From NCBI RefSeq assembly GCF_002934625.1, contig NZ_PTJD01000011.1, positions 1-64,000 of the forward strand: DNA of 64,000 nt, read 5' to 3'. This DNA comes from Kineococcus xinjiangensis. Lineage in GTDB: Bacteria > Actinomycetota > Actinomycetes > Actinomycetales > Kineococcaceae. Under the pieces are notes generated by a model. It worked only from the letters and a program-made list of their open reading frames with translations. It ran no database searches and was not told where the DNA came from. Below, piece after piece: positions 43,164-49,910 of this stretch (position 1 is its first letter; each line of letters begins with the position of its first letter). Position numbers and translations under genes: made by a program.

Positions 43164-45392
43164 TCAGCCGTGCAGGGCGGGCACCCAGCGCGGGCCGGTG
43201 TGCGCGGAGCGCCCCAGCAGCGCCAGCGCCGCCGGCAGCAGCAGCCCCCGCACCACCGTCGCGTCCAGCAGCACCGCGGCCGCCAGCCCCACCCCCAGCT
43301 GCTTCATGCCGAGGTCCGACATCGTGCCGAACACCGCGAACACCGCCACCATGACGACCGCGGCGCTCGTGACCACCCCGGCGGTGCGGGCCACCCCCGC
43401 GGCCACCGCCTCGCGGGCCGTGCGCCCGGCGGCGAACTCCTCGCGGACCCGGGCGACGACGAGGACGTGGTAGTCCATCGACAGCCCGAACAGCACCACC
43501 AGCATCAGCACCGGCAGCCAGCTCACCACCGCACCCGTCGACGTGAACCCGAGCAGGCCCTCCGCCCACTCCCCGCCGAAGACGACGGTGACGATGCCGA
43601 ACGCCGCCAGGCAGCTGCCCGCGTTGAGGACGAGCGTCGCCAGCGCCAGCGCCGGGGACCCGAAGGACAGCAGCACCACCGCGAACGTCAGCACCAGGAC
43701 GAACGCCGCCACCCACGGCAGCCGCTCCGACATCCACGCGGACAGGTCGGTGCCCTCCGCAACGCCCCCGACGGCCACCGTCGCCCCCGCGGGCAGCTCC
43801 CCGCGCAGCCGCGGGACGAGCCGCTCGCGCACCTCGGCGACCGCCTCGGCCGCCTCCTCGCCGCCCGGTGCCCCCGCCAGCGGCAGGGCCAGGACGTGGA
43901 CCCGCCCGTCGACGGCCGAGCGCAGGCTGGGCGGCGTGCCCTCCGCGAAGCGCAGGCCGAGGCCGGCGGCGCCGGCGCGGGCCTCGGCGTCGGCCCGCTC
44001 CAGGGCCGCCACGGCCCGGTCCGCCCCCGCGGCGGTGGACGTCACGACGACGTCGACGGTGGCGCCGGAGTCGGGGAAGGCCGCGGTGAGCCGATCCAGC
44101 GCCTGCACGCTCTCGAAGTGCTCCGGCAGGGCCTCCGCCCCGGGCAGCGCCGTCTGCATCCCGAACGCCGGCACCGCCAGGCCCACGACCAGCGCCCCGC
44201 CGCCGAGCAGCGCCACGACCGGGCGGCGGGCGGCGACACCGGCGACGCGGCCCCACGCCGAGCGCTCCGGGTCCGCGCCGCGCGCACCCCGGCGCAGGCG
44301 GGGCAGGCGCAGCGCCTCCACCCGGTCGCCGAGGACCGCCATCAGCGCCGGCAACAGCGTCGCCGAGGCCAGCACAGCGACCGCCACGACGAGCACCGCG
44401 CCGAGCGCCAGGGACGTGTAGAGGCCGCCCGCGACGAGCATCCCCGCCATGGACACGACGACGGTGGCGCCGGAGACGACGACCGCCCGGCCCGACGTGC
44501 GGGCGGCCAGCAGGATCCCGTCGCGCACGGAGGCGCCCTCGGCACGCGCGGCGCGGGCCCGGCGCAGCACGAACAGTGCGTAGTCGACACCGACGGCGAG
44601 GCCGATGAGCAGCGTCAGGCTCGCCGCCTCGGGCGCCACGGGGCGCACGCCCGACACCAGCGCGGTCAGGCCGAGGGCGACGACGACGGAGACGAGGCCG
44701 AGGACGACGGGGACCAGTGCGGAGACGAACGATCGGAACGCCAGCAGCAGCACGAGCAGCGTCAGCGGGATGCTCAGCAGCTCCGCGCGGTGCAGCTCGG
44801 CGGTGACCTGCTCACCCACCTCGCGGTCGATGGAGCCGGGGCCGACCTGGCCGACCTCCAGCTCGGGGTGGGCCGCGGCGAGGTCCGCGGTCCGCTCCAG
44901 CGCGCCGGCCACGTCCTCCTGCGCGGACTCCCCGACGGGGGTGTCCAGCAGCAGCGGCACGGCGTAGGTGCGCCCGTCCGCGGACAGCGTCCCCTCCCCG
45001 ACGCCCGTGACGTGCGGGGCGCCGCGGTAGGCGTCCACGGCCTCCGCGTGCAGCCGCTCCAGCGTCGCGGGGTCCATCGCGTGCTGCGCGGTCAGCACCA
45101 GCGTCTCCTGCTGCGGCCGGCCGAAGTCGGCCCCCTCGAGGGCGGCGGCGGCCGCGCGGGAGTCGCCGACCAGCTCGTCCACGGGATCAGTGGTCGTGGT
45201 CCCCCGGCCGATGAGGAGCACGGCGGCGGCGACCAGCAGCACCCAGCCGAGCAGCACCCACCAGCGGCGCTCGATGCTGAACCGGGCCGCTCCACCGCCC
45301 CGGGGCGGGACCGGGGGCAGCGGTGGGCCGGCGGCGGGGCGCGCGCGGGGAACGGTCGGGGCGGGGCGCTGGGGCGCGGACTGCGAGGGCAC
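43164..45392 (-). CDS. MMPL-family (RND) membrane transporter
   Basis: The 742-residue protein has about 12 membrane helices in two duplicated halves. Each half begins with one helix (WWVLLGWVLLVAAAVLLIG), then a large extracytoplasmic domain, then five to six helices. Motifs include LLIGLAVGVDYALFVLRR, VVVSGATVVVSMAGML, GLSMDYHVLVVARVREEF and LDATVVRGLLLPAALALLG. These are hallmarks of actinobacterial MMPL transporters, which export lipids or siderophores or act as drug efflux pumps with proton coupling. Substrate unknown. GTG 45392 follows CCGGAGG. The Pro/Ala-rich N-terminus (PSQSAPQRPAPTVPRA) is cytoplasmic. No regulator is adjacent. Confidence 0.9.
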   Translation of the reverse strand: MPSQSAPQRPAPTVPRARPAAGPPLPPVPPRGGGAARFSIERRWWVLLGWVLLVAAAVLLIGRGTTTTDPVDELVGDSRAAAAALEGADFGRPQQETLVLTAQHAMDPATLERLHAEAVDAYRGAPHVTGVGEGTLSADGRTYAVPLLLDTPVGESAQEDVAGALERTADLAAAHPELEVGQVGPGSIDREVGEQVTAELHRAELLSIPLTLLVLLLAFRSFVSALVPVVLGLVSVVVALGLTALVSGVRPVAPEAASLTLLIGLAVGVDYALFVLRRARAARAEGASVRDGILLAARTSGRAVVVSGATVVVSMAGMLVAGGLYTSLALGAVLVVAVAVLASATLLPALMAVLGDRVEALRLPRLRRGARGADPERSAWGRVAGVAARRPVVALLGGGALVVGLAVPAFGMQTALPGAEALPEHFESVQALDRLTAAFPDSGATVDVVVTSTAAGADRAVAALERADAEARAGAAGLGLRFAEGTPPSLRSAVDGRVHVLALPLAGAPGGEEAAEAVAEVRERLVPRLRGELPAGATVAVGGVAEGTDLSAWMSERLPWVAAFVLVLTFAVVLLSFGSPALALATLVLNAGSCLAAFGIVTVVFGGEWAEGLLGFTSTGAVVSWLPVLMLVVLFGLSMDYHVLVVARVREEFAAGRTAREAVAAGVARTAGVVTSAAVVMVAVFAVFGTMSDLGMKQLGVGLAAAVLLDATVVRGLLLPAALALLGRSAHTGPRWVPALHG

Positions 45393-45503
45393 GGGAACCT
45401 CCGGCTGGGCGGGCGTCGCGGGGACGCCTGGAACCCTCCCGCCCGTGGTGGTGCCGGGTCGCTGGTGCGCGCACCCGTCCCGGGGTGGGGCCAGCCCCAC
45501 CCT

Positions 45504-45539: not shown

Positions 45540-46454
45540 CTACCCCTCGTCGGCCAGCACGGCCTCGGACAGGTGCCAGCGGCGCAGCAGCCGGTCGTAC
45601 GTGCCCCGCTCGTCGAGCTCGGCGAGCGCGTCGGTCAGCAGATCCCTGAACCGGAAGTCGGAGGGCGGCACGGCGACGCCGAAGACGACGGGCAGCTCCG
45701 GTGCGGTGTCCATGACGCGGTAGTGGCTGCGGGTGCGGGGGTTGGTCATCAGGTGCGCCGCCTGCGCGTGGTCGGTGACCAGCGCGTCGGCCTGGCGGGT
45801 GCGCAGCTGCAGCAGGGCGTCGGCGTTGGAGGGGAACTCCTCGACGCGGATCCCCTGCTCGCCGCAGTCCAGCGCCGCCTCGCGCAGGACGTCCACCTGC
45901 GCGGTGTCCCGCTCCACGGCGACGACGAAGCCGCACAGGTCGTCGAGGTCGGTGACGCCCACGATGGTGTGCCGCTGGACCAGCAGCGACGTGGGCGTGG
46001 CGAGGAACGGGACCACGTCGGCGTGCAGGCCGGCCGCCGCCGGGGCGCCGGCGGTGGTGAGCGCGACGTCGAAGCGGGGGATCCCCGTGCCCCCGGAGTC
46101 CCCCTCCCCCATCCGCTCCGGCAGCCCGGCCAGGACCTGCCGGGGCGGGACCACGACGAGCTCGAAGCGCACCCCCATCAGGCGCCCGAGCTCGGCGAGC
46201 AGGTCGGGCGCGAAGCCGACGACCCGGCGCCCGTCGGCGTCGAAGGAGCTCAGGGGCCGGTGCGAGGCGTCCGTGGCGACGCGCACGACGCCGCGCTCCA
46301 GCACGTCCGGGGGCAGCCGCTCGTGGAGGGCGGGGTCCACGGCGGTCGCGGGGGGCGCACTCTGCACCGCCCCGCACGCCGGCACGAGCACCGCCAGCGC
46401 CGCGGCGAGCGCCAGGGCCGCGCCGGCGCGCCGTGTCGCACGCACCTTCCTCAC
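45540..46454 (-). CDS. Family-3 solute-binding lipoprotein
   Basis: The 304-residue lipoprotein has signal sequence RATRRAGAALALAAALAVLVPACG (lipobox VPAC). A periplasmic binding-protein-3 fold follows: VVRVATDASHRPLSSFDADGRRVVGFAPDLLAELGRLMGVRFELVVVP, FDVALTTAGAP, VVAVERDTAQVDVLREA, RQADALVTDHAQAAHLM, and ELPVVFGVAVPPSDFRFRDLLTDALAELDERGTYDRLLRRW. This is the amino-acid-binding (PBPb) family. No ABC permease or ATPase gene is near. Its GTG overlaps the stop of the diguanylate cyclase gene (GTGA, 46451-46454), suggesting that it presents a ligand to that sensor rather than to a transporter. Confidence 0.9.
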   Translation of the reverse strand: MRKVRATRRAGAALALAAALAVLVPACGAVQSAPPATAVDPALHERLPPDVLERGVVRVATDASHRPLSSFDADGRRVVGFAPDLLAELGRLMGVRFELVVVPPRQVLAGLPERMGEGDSGGTGIPRFDVALTTAGAPAAAGLHADVVPFLATPTSLLVQRHTIVGVTDLDDLCGFVVAVERDTAQVDVLREAALDCGEQGIRVEEFPSNADALLQLRTRQADALVTDHAQAAHLMTNPRTRSHYRVMDTAPELPVVFGVAVPPSDFRFRDLLTDALAELDERGTYDRLLRRWHLSEAVLADEG

Positions 46455-47692
46455 ACCCTCGCCGGGCGCGGGGCGGGCACGGGACCGCCGCCGGGCGCGC
46501 CACCCGCCTCGGGCGGGTTGCCCGGGATGGCTCCGTAGATCACGACACCGCCGTTGGCGCCGTGCTTGCCCTTGTACATCGCGGCGTCCGCGTGGCGCAG
46601 CAGCTCCTCCATGGAGTCGCCGTGGTCCGGGTGCAGCGCGCCGCCGAACGTGGTCTGCACGGGCAGGACGTGCTCGTCGATCGAGGTGTCCTCGTTCACC
46701 GCGCACCGGACGGAGGTGAGCAGCTCGTGCGCCTCGGCGATGGTGGCGACCCCGGGCAGCAGCACGGCGAACTCGTCACCGCCGAGACGGGCGACGGTGT
46801 CGTCGGTGCGCACCGCGCCGGACAGGCGCTGGGCGATGACCTGCAGCAGCACGTCGCCGGCGTGGTGGCCGAGGGTGTCGTTGACGGACTTGAAGTGGTC
46901 GACGTCGATCAGGGTGACGAGGCCGGGCTGGCCCTTGCGCAGGTCGCGCTCCACGGCGGCGCGGAAGGCGGCGCGGTTGGGCAGGCCGGTGAGGCTGTCG
47001 TGCAGGGCCTGGTGCTCCTGCCGGCGGGCGAAGCGGCGCAGCTGCCGGGTGGAGGACCAGGAGATCAGCGCCAGCACGAGGTAGAGGACGCCGAGCGCCG
47101 CACCCAGGCCCCAGTACAGCCGCCGGGTGTCCTCGCGCAGCTGCGCCTCGATGCTCTCGTAGGGCAGGAAGACCTCCAGCACCCCGACGGCCTGGTTGTC
47201 GGCGTCGGGGGTGATGGGCTGCAGGACCCGGATGACGTTCACCTCGGGGGCGTAGGGGTCGGGCACGATGGCGGCGCCGACCGTGCCGCCGGCCGCCGCC
47301 TCCACGTCGGCGTCGCGATTGACGAGCTTCCCGTCCGTGTTGCTGATCCCGTCGTCGGCGAAGACCACCCGCCCGCCGAAGGTGCGCAGCCGCAGGTGCA
47401 GGACGGAGTCGTGGAAGACCGCGAGGTCGGTGGCGGCGCGCAGCCGCTGCTGGGCGGCCGGGGAGATGCCGCTGGCGATGCTGGCCCCCTCGCCCCGCAG
47501 GGCCGGCGCGACCGCCACCTCCTCGATGACGGCCGCCTGGGCGCGCCCGAGCTGCAGGCCCTGCTGCACGGCCTGCTGCTGGTACGTGTGCACCTGGACC
47601 GCACCGAGGCCGAGGATCGGCACCAGGCTCGCCGCTGCGTAGATCGCGAACAGGCGGGCCCCGGCACCTCCGCTGCGGCGCGACGGTCTCAT
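46451..47692 (-). CDS. Transmembrane diguanylate cyclase with periplasmic sensor
   Basis: The 413-residue protein has membrane helix 1 (about 13-33), an extracytoplasmic domain of about 165 residues (Cache/CHASE-like: AVFHDSVLHLRLRTFGGRVVFADDG, VIRVLQPITPDADNQAVGVLEVFLPYE), helix 2 (LYWGLGAALGVLYLVLALISW) and a GGDEF domain. The cyclase is intact (LIDVDHFKSVNDTLGHHAGD, ARLGGDEFAVLL) with the inhibitory I-site RTDD five residues before GGDEF, so feedback inhibition by c-di-GMP is expected. It lies first of a two-gene unit with the binding lipoprotein. Start ATG 47692 (MRPSRRSGG) chosen since the first helix follows directly; a GTG 60 bases upstream is possible. Confidence 0.9.
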   Translation of the reverse strand: MRPSRRSGGAGARLFAIYAAASLVPILGLGAVQVHTYQQQAVQQGLQLGRAQAAVIEEVAVAPALRGEGASIASGISPAAQQRLRAATDLAVFHDSVLHLRLRTFGGRVVFADDGISNTDGKLVNRDADVEAAAGGTVGAAIVPDPYAPEVNVIRVLQPITPDADNQAVGVLEVFLPYESIEAQLREDTRRLYWGLGAALGVLYLVLALISWSSTRQLRRFARRQEHQALHDSLTGLPNRAAFRAAVERDLRKGQPGLVTLIDVDHFKSVNDTLGHHAGDVLLQVIAQRLSGAVRTDDTVARLGGDEFAVLLPGVATIAEAHELLTSVRCAVNEDTSIDEHVLPVQTTFGGALHPDHGDSMEELLRHADAAMYKGKHGANGGVVIYGAIPGNPPEAGGAPGGGPVPAPRPARV

Positions 47693-47850
47693 GCACAGGT
47701 CATCGGGTGCCGCCGCTTCGGGCTTGAACGGTCTGCTCGAACGGTTCAGCACCGCCGGCCGCGCCCGCGCGGGGGTGGGGACAACCCCACCCGGGGGACG
47801 GGTGCCCGCACTGCTCCGCCGGCGGCTCCCGCGGACCTACTGTCGGTGGC

Positions 47851-49197
47851 GTGAGCACCCCCGCACTCCTCCCCGGCCCCTGGCGGCCCCTGCCGGCCCG
47901 GCTGTGGCTCGACGGCTGGTGGGCCGTCTGCCACCTGGCCCTGACGGTGCTGCTGCTGGGCTGGTACGTGACGCTCTTCGTCCTGCTGGTGCTGGGCACC
48001 GCCCTGACGCCGGTGTTCCTGACGGGGGTGCCGCTGCTGCTGCTGGCGCGGGTGGGCATCCGGGCGTCGCAGTGGGTGGAGCGCTGGCGGCAGGAGGCGC
48101 TGCTCGGCGAGGCGATGCCCGCCCAGCCGGTGCGGGTGTCGCCGGATGCGAGGCCGTGGTGGCGGCGGTGGCTGCTGGACGCTCAGCCGTGGCGCACCGG
48201 GCTGCACCTGCTGCTCGTGTCGACGTACGGGGCGGTGGCGGCGGGGGTGGTCGTCGGCCTGACCGGCGCCGCGCTGGGCGCCCTGGCCGCGCCGCTGGCG
48301 GCGGGCGGGGACCTGGCCTGGCCGTTCGTGCAGCCGGCGCTGCCGATGCCCGTGCCCGTGCCGGTCGTCGTGGTGGCCGCGGTGCTCCTGCTGCTCCTGG
48401 TGCCGCTGCTGGCCCGCGCGCTCGTCGTGCCGGAGACCGCCGCGGCGCGGGCGCTGCTGGGCCCGACCCGCAGCGCGCGGGAGGCCGTCCTGGAGCGGCG
48501 GGTGGAGTCGCTGACGGTGACGCGGGAGCGGGCCGTGGACTCGGTGGAGGCGGAGCGCCGCCGCATCGAGCGGGACCTGCACGACGGCCCGCAGCAGCGG
48601 CTGGTGGCGCTGGCGATGCAGCTGGGGATGGCGCAGCGGGCGCTGGAGCGCGACCCGGCCGCCGCGCAGCGACTGCTCGACAAGGCCCACGGCACCGCCA
48701 AGGAGGCGATCTCGGACATGCGGTTCGTGGCCCGCGGGATCCATCCGCCCGTCCTCACCGACCGGGGCCTCGACGCGGCGCTGTCGGCACTGGCGGCGAG
48801 TTCGGCGGTGCCGGTGCGGGTGGACGTCGACCTGGACCCGGCGCGCGACGGGCGGCCCTCGGCGACGTCGGAGGCCATCGCCTACTTCTGCGTCTCCGAG
48901 GCGCTGACGAACGTCGCCAAGCATGCCGGCGCGACCCGCGCCCACGTGGAGGTCCGCCGCGACGGGGACCTCCTGGTGCTGCGGGTCAGCGACGACGGCG
49001 TGGGCGGGGCGTGCCCGTCGGAGGTGCCCGTGCCGGCCGGAGTGTCGGGCTCGGGCCTGCGGGGGCTGGCGGACCGGGTGGCCTCCGTCGACGGCTGGAT
49101 CCACCTGGACAGCCCGGTGGGCGGCCCGACGGTCCTCACGGCGGGCCTGCCGTGGGACCGGCGGGACGGATCCGGGTCGAGGGGCGGTGCGCGGTGA
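47851..49197 (+). CDS. NarL-type sensor histidine kinase
   Basis: The 448-residue protein has an N-terminal four-to-five-helix membrane sensor (CHLALTVLLLGWYVTLFVLLVLG; LLLLARVGIR; HLLLVSTYGAVAAGVVVGLTGAAL; VVVVAAVLLLLLVPLLARALVV). HisKA_3 follows with phospho-acceptor His244 (EAERRRIERDLHDGPQQRLVAL) and then HATPase_c (FCVSEALTNVAKHAGAT, LRVSDDGVGG, SGLRGLADRVASVDG). The membrane sensor resembles the DUF/PspC-like sensor of actinobacterial LiaS-type kinases. It is first in a three-gene operon; its stop overlaps the regulator start as GTGA (49194-49197). GTG 47851 start. Confidence 0.93.
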   Translation: MSTPALLPGPWRPLPARLWLDGWWAVCHLALTVLLLGWYVTLFVLLVLGTALTPVFLTGVPLLLLARVGIRASQWVERWRQEALLGEAMPAQPVRVSPDARPWWRRWLLDAQPWRTGLHLLLVSTYGAVAAGVVVGLTGAALGALAAPLAAGGDLAWPFVQPALPMPVPVPVVVVAAVLLLLLVPLLARALVVPETAAARALLGPTRSAREAVLERRVESLTVTRERAVDSVEAERRRIERDLHDGPQQRLVALAMQLGMAQRALERDPAAAQRLLDKAHGTAKEAISDMRFVARGIHPPVLTDRGLDAALSALAASSAVPVRVDVDLDPARDGRPSATSEAIAYFCVSEALTNVAKHAGATRAHVEVRRDGDLLVLRVSDDGVGGACPSEVPVPAGVSGSGLRGLADRVASVDGWIHLDSPVGGPTVLTAGLPWDRRDGSGSRGGAR

Positions 49198-49910
49198 GCG
49201 GTTCCGGGAGCGCGGCGGGTGCCGCGCCGCTGCGGGTGGTGCTGGCGGAGGACTCCGTCCTGCTGCGGGAGGGGCTGGTGAGCCTGCTCACCGCGGAGGG
49301 CGTCGAGGTCGTGGCGGCCGTGGACCGTGCGGAGGACGTGCTGCGCGCGGTCGCGGAGCACTCCCCCGACCTGGCGGTGCTGGACGTGCGGATGCCACCG
49401 ACGTTCACCGACGAGGGGATCCGCGCGGCCCTGGTGGTGCGGGAGCAGCACCCGGGCACGGCGGTCCTCGTGCTCTCGCAGTACGTGGAGGAGCGCTACG
49501 CCACGGACCTCGTCGCGGGACGCGCGACGGGCGTGGGCTACCTGCTGAAGGACCGCGTCGCCGACGTCGACCAGTTCGTCCGCACCCTGCACCACGTCGC
49601 GGCCGGCGGGACGGCCGTGGACCCGGAGGTCGTGGCGCAGCTGCTGTCGCGGGTGCGCCGCGACGACCCCCTGGGCCGGTTGACCCCGCGGGAGCTGGAG
49701 GTCCTGCAGCTCATGGCGGAGGGTCGCTCGAACTCCGCGGTGGCGGCGCACCTGTTCGTGACGGACAAGGCCGTGGAGAAGCACGTCTCCAGCATCTTCG
49801 CGAAGCTCGACCTGCCCCCCGCGGGCGAGGACCACCGCCGCGTCCTCGCCGTCCTGCGCTACCTCGGCACCGCCGCGCACGGCGGGGCGAACCCCTGGAG
49901 GAACCCGTGA
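49194..49910 (+). CDS. LuxR/NarL-family response regulator
   Basis: The 238-residue protein has a receiver domain (LRVVLAEDSVLLREGLVSLL, phospho-acceptor Asp64 in LAVLDVRMPPT, Lys in GYLLKDRVADV) and a C-terminal LuxR-type helix-turn-helix (LTPRELEVLQLMAEGRSNSAVAAHLFVTDKAVEKHVSSIFAKLDL). Cognate to the kinase upstream, with start and stop overlapping (GTGA). It probably activates its own operon and cell-envelope genes. It also overlaps the DUF4097 gene (GTGA 49907-49910). Confidence 0.95.
   Translation: MSGSGSAAGAAPLRVVLAEDSVLLREGLVSLLTAEGVEVVAAVDRAEDVLRAVAEHSPDLAVLDVRMPPTFTDEGIRAALVVREQHPGTAVLVLSQYVEERYATDLVAGRATGVGYLLKDRVADVDQFVRTLHHVAAGGTAVDPEVVAQLLSRVRRDDPLGRLTPRELEVLQLMAEGRSNSAVAAHLFVTDKAVEKHVSSIFAKLDLPPAGEDHRRVLAVLRYLGTAAHGGANPWRNP

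Follow-up and report, generated by a model that had tools for sequence, protein, structure and literature searches.

A membrane diguanylate cyclase (DGC) and a family-3 solute-binding lipoprotein (SBP), encoded by two overlapping genes in a 64,000-nucleotide stretch of the Kineococcus xinjiangensis genome (the window), probably form one two-protein receptor, where the SBP would be the ligand subunit that sets the activity of the cyclase. This proposal builds on demonstrated features, namely the structure of the two genes, their conserved pairing, a switch of the SBP family, an element upstream of the pair and its co-occurrence with flagellin. It suggests that several groups of actinobacteria, most of them flagellated, read an outside chemical into a c-di-GMP signal. 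The features of the locus are the following:

45540..46454, minus strand: gene of the family-3 (SBP_bac_3) solute-binding lipoprotein (Pfam profile, PDB sequence matches, AlphaFold2 model, homologs)
46374..46376, minus strand: codon of the lipobox cysteine, Cys27 (invariant in seven aligned SBP_bac_3 partners)
46451..46454, minus strand: GTGA overlap between the DGC stop and the SBP start (sequence)
46451..47692, minus strand: gene of the membrane DGC, with TM1, extracytoplasmic sensor, TM2 and GGDEF, and no EAL (profile search, homolog alignment, AlphaFold2 model)
46769..46783, minus strand: GGDEF active-site motif, residues 304-308, preceded by the RxxD I-site R295-D298 (sequence; invariant in homologs)
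47123..47590, minus strand: extracytoplasmic sensor domain, residues ~35-190 (conserved family in homologs)
47701..47728, minus strand: promoter-like element TTCA-N17-CCCGATG, 36 nt upstream of the DGC start (weak flagellar-sigma match, in register with stronger matches in relatives)

On the minus strand, the DGC gene comes first and its stop codon TGA (46453-46451) overlaps the GTG start of the lipoprotein (46454-46452) as GTGA. Coordinates, profiles and domains confirm in this respect a preliminary description of the locus, which had reported a family-3 lipoprotein gene overlapping that of a membrane DGC. The lipoprotein (304 aa, lipobox LVPAC) matches the Pfam family SBP_bac_3 (PF00497) at E=1.2e-11 with 44.9 bits, the cut-off being 26.4, and its PDB sequence matches are amino-acid-binding proteins. 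Its AlphaFold2 model (pLDDT 82) shows an amino-acid-binding-protein fold, with the best structural match at E 8.5e-18; the score above the Pfam cut-off, together with this periplasmic-binding-protein fold, places it within SBP_bac_3. Modelling was confined to the proteins of the window, leaving aside the homologs from genome searches. About 40 nt after the SBP stop, and on the same strand, starts an MMPL transporter gene (43164-45500, minus), of which no counterpart was seen among the inspected neighbours of homologous pairs. Divergent from the DGC lie a histidine kinase gene (HisKA_3) and then a response regulator (47851-49910, plus).

The cyclase has 413 aa, with about 155 extracytoplasmic residues between TM1 and TM2, followed by a GGDEF domain (PF00990, E=8.3e-41 in Pfam) whose intact active-site motif and I-site predict a c-di-GMP synthase. 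The sensor domain gave no significant Pfam family and no PDB sequence match, and the alignment reveals sensor residues conserved across homologs. The AlphaFold2 model of the DGC reaches a pLDDT of 70.5 and a pTM of 0.41, values too low for reading an interface and at which the domain arrangement is uncertain. A fold for the sensor was sought on this model with Foldseek and VIA-align and then discarded, as the structures obtained were GGDEF-containing ones with an inflated rmsd over the sensor. The whole genome (4.6 Mb) carries about 90 GGDEF genes, a very large c-di-GMP repertoire, and the SBP-DGC pair would therefore be one input among many.

All ten close homologs of the SBP that were found (10/10, the window included), spread over four families or more, have a homologous sensor-GGDEF protein encoded immediately before them, one of the loci being cut by a contig end. 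We regarded as close those homologs with 37-45% identity or with E<1e-120 to the SBP profile, and besides the window they comprise L035, L036, L037, L038, L039, L100, L136 and L137, plus L040, where the C-terminus of the EAL is all that remains before the SBP at the contig end. A scan of named genomes contributed a Nocardioidaceae MAG (L037), Couchioplanes caeruleus (L038), Nucisporomicrobium flavum (L039) and a Micrococcales MAG from a fen (L040), and later searches added three further pair-bearing genomes (G732, G942 and G919). Among 396 genomes of the order, SBP matches at the level of the true family (E<1e-140) amount to just three, those of the window, G033 and G015, and all the remaining matches have E>=1e-59. 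Of the 11 other complete pair loci, 8 join both genes by ATGA, GTGA or TGATG (ATGA in L035, L036 and L136; GTGA in L137, as in the window; TGATG in L037), and the remaining three have gaps of 11-17 nt (L038, L039 and L100). Since every close homolog found is paired alike, the pairing is not a product of chance. Its distribution is patchy and spread over families other than that of the window, and conservation of the gene pair across Kineosporiales was not observed, as a close SBP homolog turned up in none of the 11 further genomes from that family.

Two candidates were set aside during this survey. A reversed pair had been considered at L040, where a distant GGDEF-EAL gene lies downstream of the SBP, but the gene order is the normal one, as the EAL end that precedes the SBP reveals. 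Weaker SBP matches (E from ~1e-3 to 1e-21) were rejected as members of the family, since neighbours at L008-L010 include permease and ATPase genes, and are read as ordinary transport SBPs. In the fen MAG (L040, 1103-3412, plus strand), the start of the second GGDEF-EAL gene falls on the SBP stop codon, which results in a DGC-SBP-DGC row.

A second family of binding proteins appears beside the same sensor. A profile of the sensor domain (A5) was searched over 394 genomes of the class and matched in 17 of them. In family f35, where 2 of 200 genomes carry the sensor at E<=1e-35, a sensor-GGDEF gene without EAL overlaps the gene of a binding protein unrelated to SBP_bac_3, an OpuAC protein of the betaine type (E 2e-39 to 1e-41), both in G536, at two loci, and in G632. 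A tree of 26 cyclases groups the SBP-linked DGCs in one clade, with a middling support of 88/87, which holds a single OpuAC subclade (100/100), pointing to one switch of the binding-protein family. The clade also has a member without an adjoining SBP (L101, genome G664). The tight pair in at least four families, together with the replacement of the SBP family beside the same sensor, strongly supports the coupling of lipoprotein and cyclase that had been proposed from the window. The OpuAC partners (L102 4351-5316, minus; L103 6273-7217, plus; L104 5813-6745, plus) have a signal-like N-terminus, but in contrast to the SBP_bac_3 partners a lipobox cysteine is not evident in them.

More distant homologs of the sensor-GGDEF protein occur with no nearby SBP that matches the SBP_bac_3 profile, and none was evident in the neighbour genes read. 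At one of these distant loci (L105, 7065-8303), a sensor-GGDEF-EAL gene is followed 3 nt later by that of a GSDH protein (glucose/sorbosone dehydrogenase) whose N-terminus resembles that of lipoproteins. Such distant homologs fit an explanation in which the sensor binds a ligand of its own, and the SBP merely delivers, scavenges or blocks, as a modulator in the manner of YfiR on YfiN instead of a ligand sensor; DgcN/YfiN is moreover the closest NCBIfam match of the DGC, for its GGDEF part only. However, a switch from SBP_bac_3 to OpuAC beside an unchanged sensor is easiest to understand if the SBP brings the ligand specificity, and we hold a mere modulator to be very unlikely.

Members of SBP_bac_3 mostly serve ABC transporters, and the lipoprotein could likewise be an orphan transport SBP for a permease encoded elsewhere, co-transcribed with the cyclase in a co-regulation of uptake and lifestyle. 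The genome offers 53 permease matches (BPD_transp_1), all of them outside the window, and less similar SBPs of this family (25-31%) do adjoin permease genes. On the contig of the pair, the nearest match (C11:145396) is about 98 kb away, in keeping with the earlier statement that there is no ABC permease nearby, and the neighbouring permease and ATPase genes that mark an ABC-transporter SBP are missing around the lipoprotein. The preliminary description had made its proposal depend on the linkage in relatives, and this linkage is with the cyclase in all close SBP homologs; no adjoining permease was seen at the pair loci examined, whose surroundings were assessed by reading gene translations rather than with a permease profile. 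The pairing with one specific sensor clade, the presence of a second SBP family in the same position and the loss of the canonical amino-acid contact in the window SBP also argue against an orphan transport protein, which we consider unlikely.

The copy in the window is atypical in several aspects. Close SBP-paired homologs have an EAL domain after the GGDEF, whereas the window DGC ends after the GGDEF and, as judged from the alignment, the EAL of its close relatives is lost. In the pocket of the SBP, His65 replaces Tyr and the Arg position is not an Arg, with D62, T184 and D228 kept, and there is an insertion of 12 residues relative to the homologs. These homologs retain the full Asp/Tyr/Arg/Thr/Asp set, and Asp, an aromatic residue, a carboxylate-binding Arg, Thr and Asp are what we take, from HisJ and GlnBP, to be the typical family-3 contacts of an amino acid. 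By such contacts the window SBP does not classify as an amino-acid binder, and a different binding mode is possible. The loss of the carboxylate-binding Arg leaves the amino acid suggested in the preliminary description unsupported for the window copy, which probably does not bind an ordinary alpha-amino acid in the customary manner; for the homologs, with their contact set kept, an amino-acid ligand is plausible.

The missing EAL, the Arg/Tyr loss and the 12-residue insertion, along with a weak upstream element and a long terminal branch of the window DGC (0.69 in the tree of 26 cyclases), could alternatively be signs of a decaying remnant, a pair that is no longer a working receptor after losing its EAL, eroding its pocket and weakening its promoter. 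We find this quite unlikely, as both frames are intact and the GGDEF, the I-site, the lipobox and the translational overlap are all retained; furthermore, OpuAC-linked homologs likewise lack the EAL, so GGDEF-only versions persist elsewhere.

In the two-protein receptor that we favour, the lipoprotein would be tethered to the outer side of the membrane, where it would bind a small solute, and in one of its states, either bound or empty, it would dock on the extracytoplasmic domain of the cyclase. Docking would change the GGDEF dimer and thereby place the rate of c-di-GMP synthesis under the control of the outside chemical. In those close homologs that have an SBP partner, this same sensor would act on a GGDEF-EAL protein, which could alternate between synthesis and breakdown of c-di-GMP; in K. 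xinjiangensis, synthesis alone would remain, with an altered binding pocket. We infer here the contact between SBP and sensor, the direction of control, the ligand and the motility output. c-di-GMP governs swimming and attachment, and the likely setting of the receptor would be the decision to swim or settle of flagellated cells or spores.

Within 100 nt upstream of the cyclase, 10 of 12 loci have a (T/C)TCA-N15..17-(G/T/C)(C/T)CGA(T/G) pattern, in most cases at a distance of 34-41 nt from the start, against a background of 0.0087 per 100 nt; the pattern was chosen after the loci had been seen, so P-values are illustrative only. The consensus common to the flagellar sigma clade and WhiG consists of a -35 TAAA and a -10 GCCGATAA (PMC8325347). 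The -10 part of our elements resembles GCCGATAA, with GCCGATA/G in several homologs and CCCGATG in the window, and the -35 part is TTCA or CTCA, not TAAA. Sigma factors of the FliA/WhiG type are present. Scanning flagellar loci for such promoters yielded few matches, and the link to a flagellar sigma factor thus rests on the pair loci and the literature. Flagellin is encoded in 6/6 pair-bearing genomes of the class sample versus 55 of 394 genomes overall (14%), a co-occurrence with a hypergeometric P of 6e-6, or 3e-4 when four lineages are counted. It is also encoded in the genomes of L037, L038 and L039, and is absent from the fen MAG of L040.

In Streptomyces, c-di-GMP restrains WhiG by way of RsiG, an anti-sigma of WhiG that depends on c-di-GMP. 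A short ORF lying two genes upstream of the pair (L035 5948-6316, L036 6214-6612) shows an incomplete RsiG-like S(X)2R(X)3Q(X)3D motif, the Q being replaced in L036. This ORF of G015 and G033 was dismissed as a part of the system, with no match in other pair genomes.

Few inputs to c-di-GMP signalling have, as far as we know, been identified in actinobacteria. The pathway had been put forward as of a kind not known to be described in these bacteria, and no description of an actinobacterial SBP-DGC pair was found in the open-access literature searched, which is weak evidence of absence; systems of this general type are already known, from proteobacteria (NspS-MbaA) and, with a kinase as output, from actinobacteria (GlnH-GlnX-PknG). 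Tentatively, the pairs might constitute an undescribed class of actinobacterial receptors, with a sensor family without known relative, interchangeable SBP_bac_3 or OpuAC ligand subunits, a nutrient input to c-di-GMP, transcription by a flagellar-type sigma factor and possibly a feedback loop on motility via the c-di-GMP-restrained WhiG (RsiG). A detachable, swappable ligand subunit in a conserved receptor makes this c-di-GMP input testable, and suggests that receptor specificity changes by exchange of the binding protein and not of the sensor. Such a receptor would also carry the control of c-di-GMP enzymes by SBPs beyond proteobacteria, into monoderm bacteria.

Among known systems, YfiN/DgcN-YfiR resembles the pair in that a periplasmic partner controls a GGDEF protein with two TM segments, and DgcN is the best NCBIfam match of the DGC, although this match covers the GGDEF part only and falls below the threshold of that family (155 of 325 bits). 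Differences are that YfiN has a HAMP domain and that YfiR does not belong to the solute-binding proteins. NspS is a PotD-type SBP that binds polyamine, whereas the partners reported here are SBP_bac_3 lipoproteins or OpuAC proteins of monoderm actinobacteria. In NspS-MbaA of Vibrio cholerae and Sinorhizobium meliloti, a periplasmic SBP sets a membrane GGDEF-EAL protein through its periplasmic domain, and this protein is bifunctional, a property that the homologs here may share (PMC8967002, PMC9993111). The tandem of SBP and membrane GGDEF-EAL protein is present in these homologs, the EAL being absent in the window; the sensor here has no Pfam or PDB sequence match. In GlnH-GlnX-PknG of Mycobacterium and Corynebacterium, an actinobacterial family-3 SBP lipoprotein signals via a membrane protein that is not a transporter (PMC6069109, PMC9769921), but the output is the Ser/Thr kinase PknG instead of a GGDEF domain in the same chain, and GlnX is predicted to be all-helical with four TM segments, in contrast to two here. 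A family-3 SBP domain also feeds a c-di-GMP enzyme in RmcA-type proteins, where it is fused in the same chain (PMC8846402), whereas the pair has a separate lipoprotein with its own gene. Diguanylate cyclases and phosphodiesterases are counted among the receptor types activated by SBPs (PMC9602780). On the best-supported reading, the window pair would be of an already known general kind, working like NspS-MbaA and GlnH-GlnX-PknG and belonging to neither.
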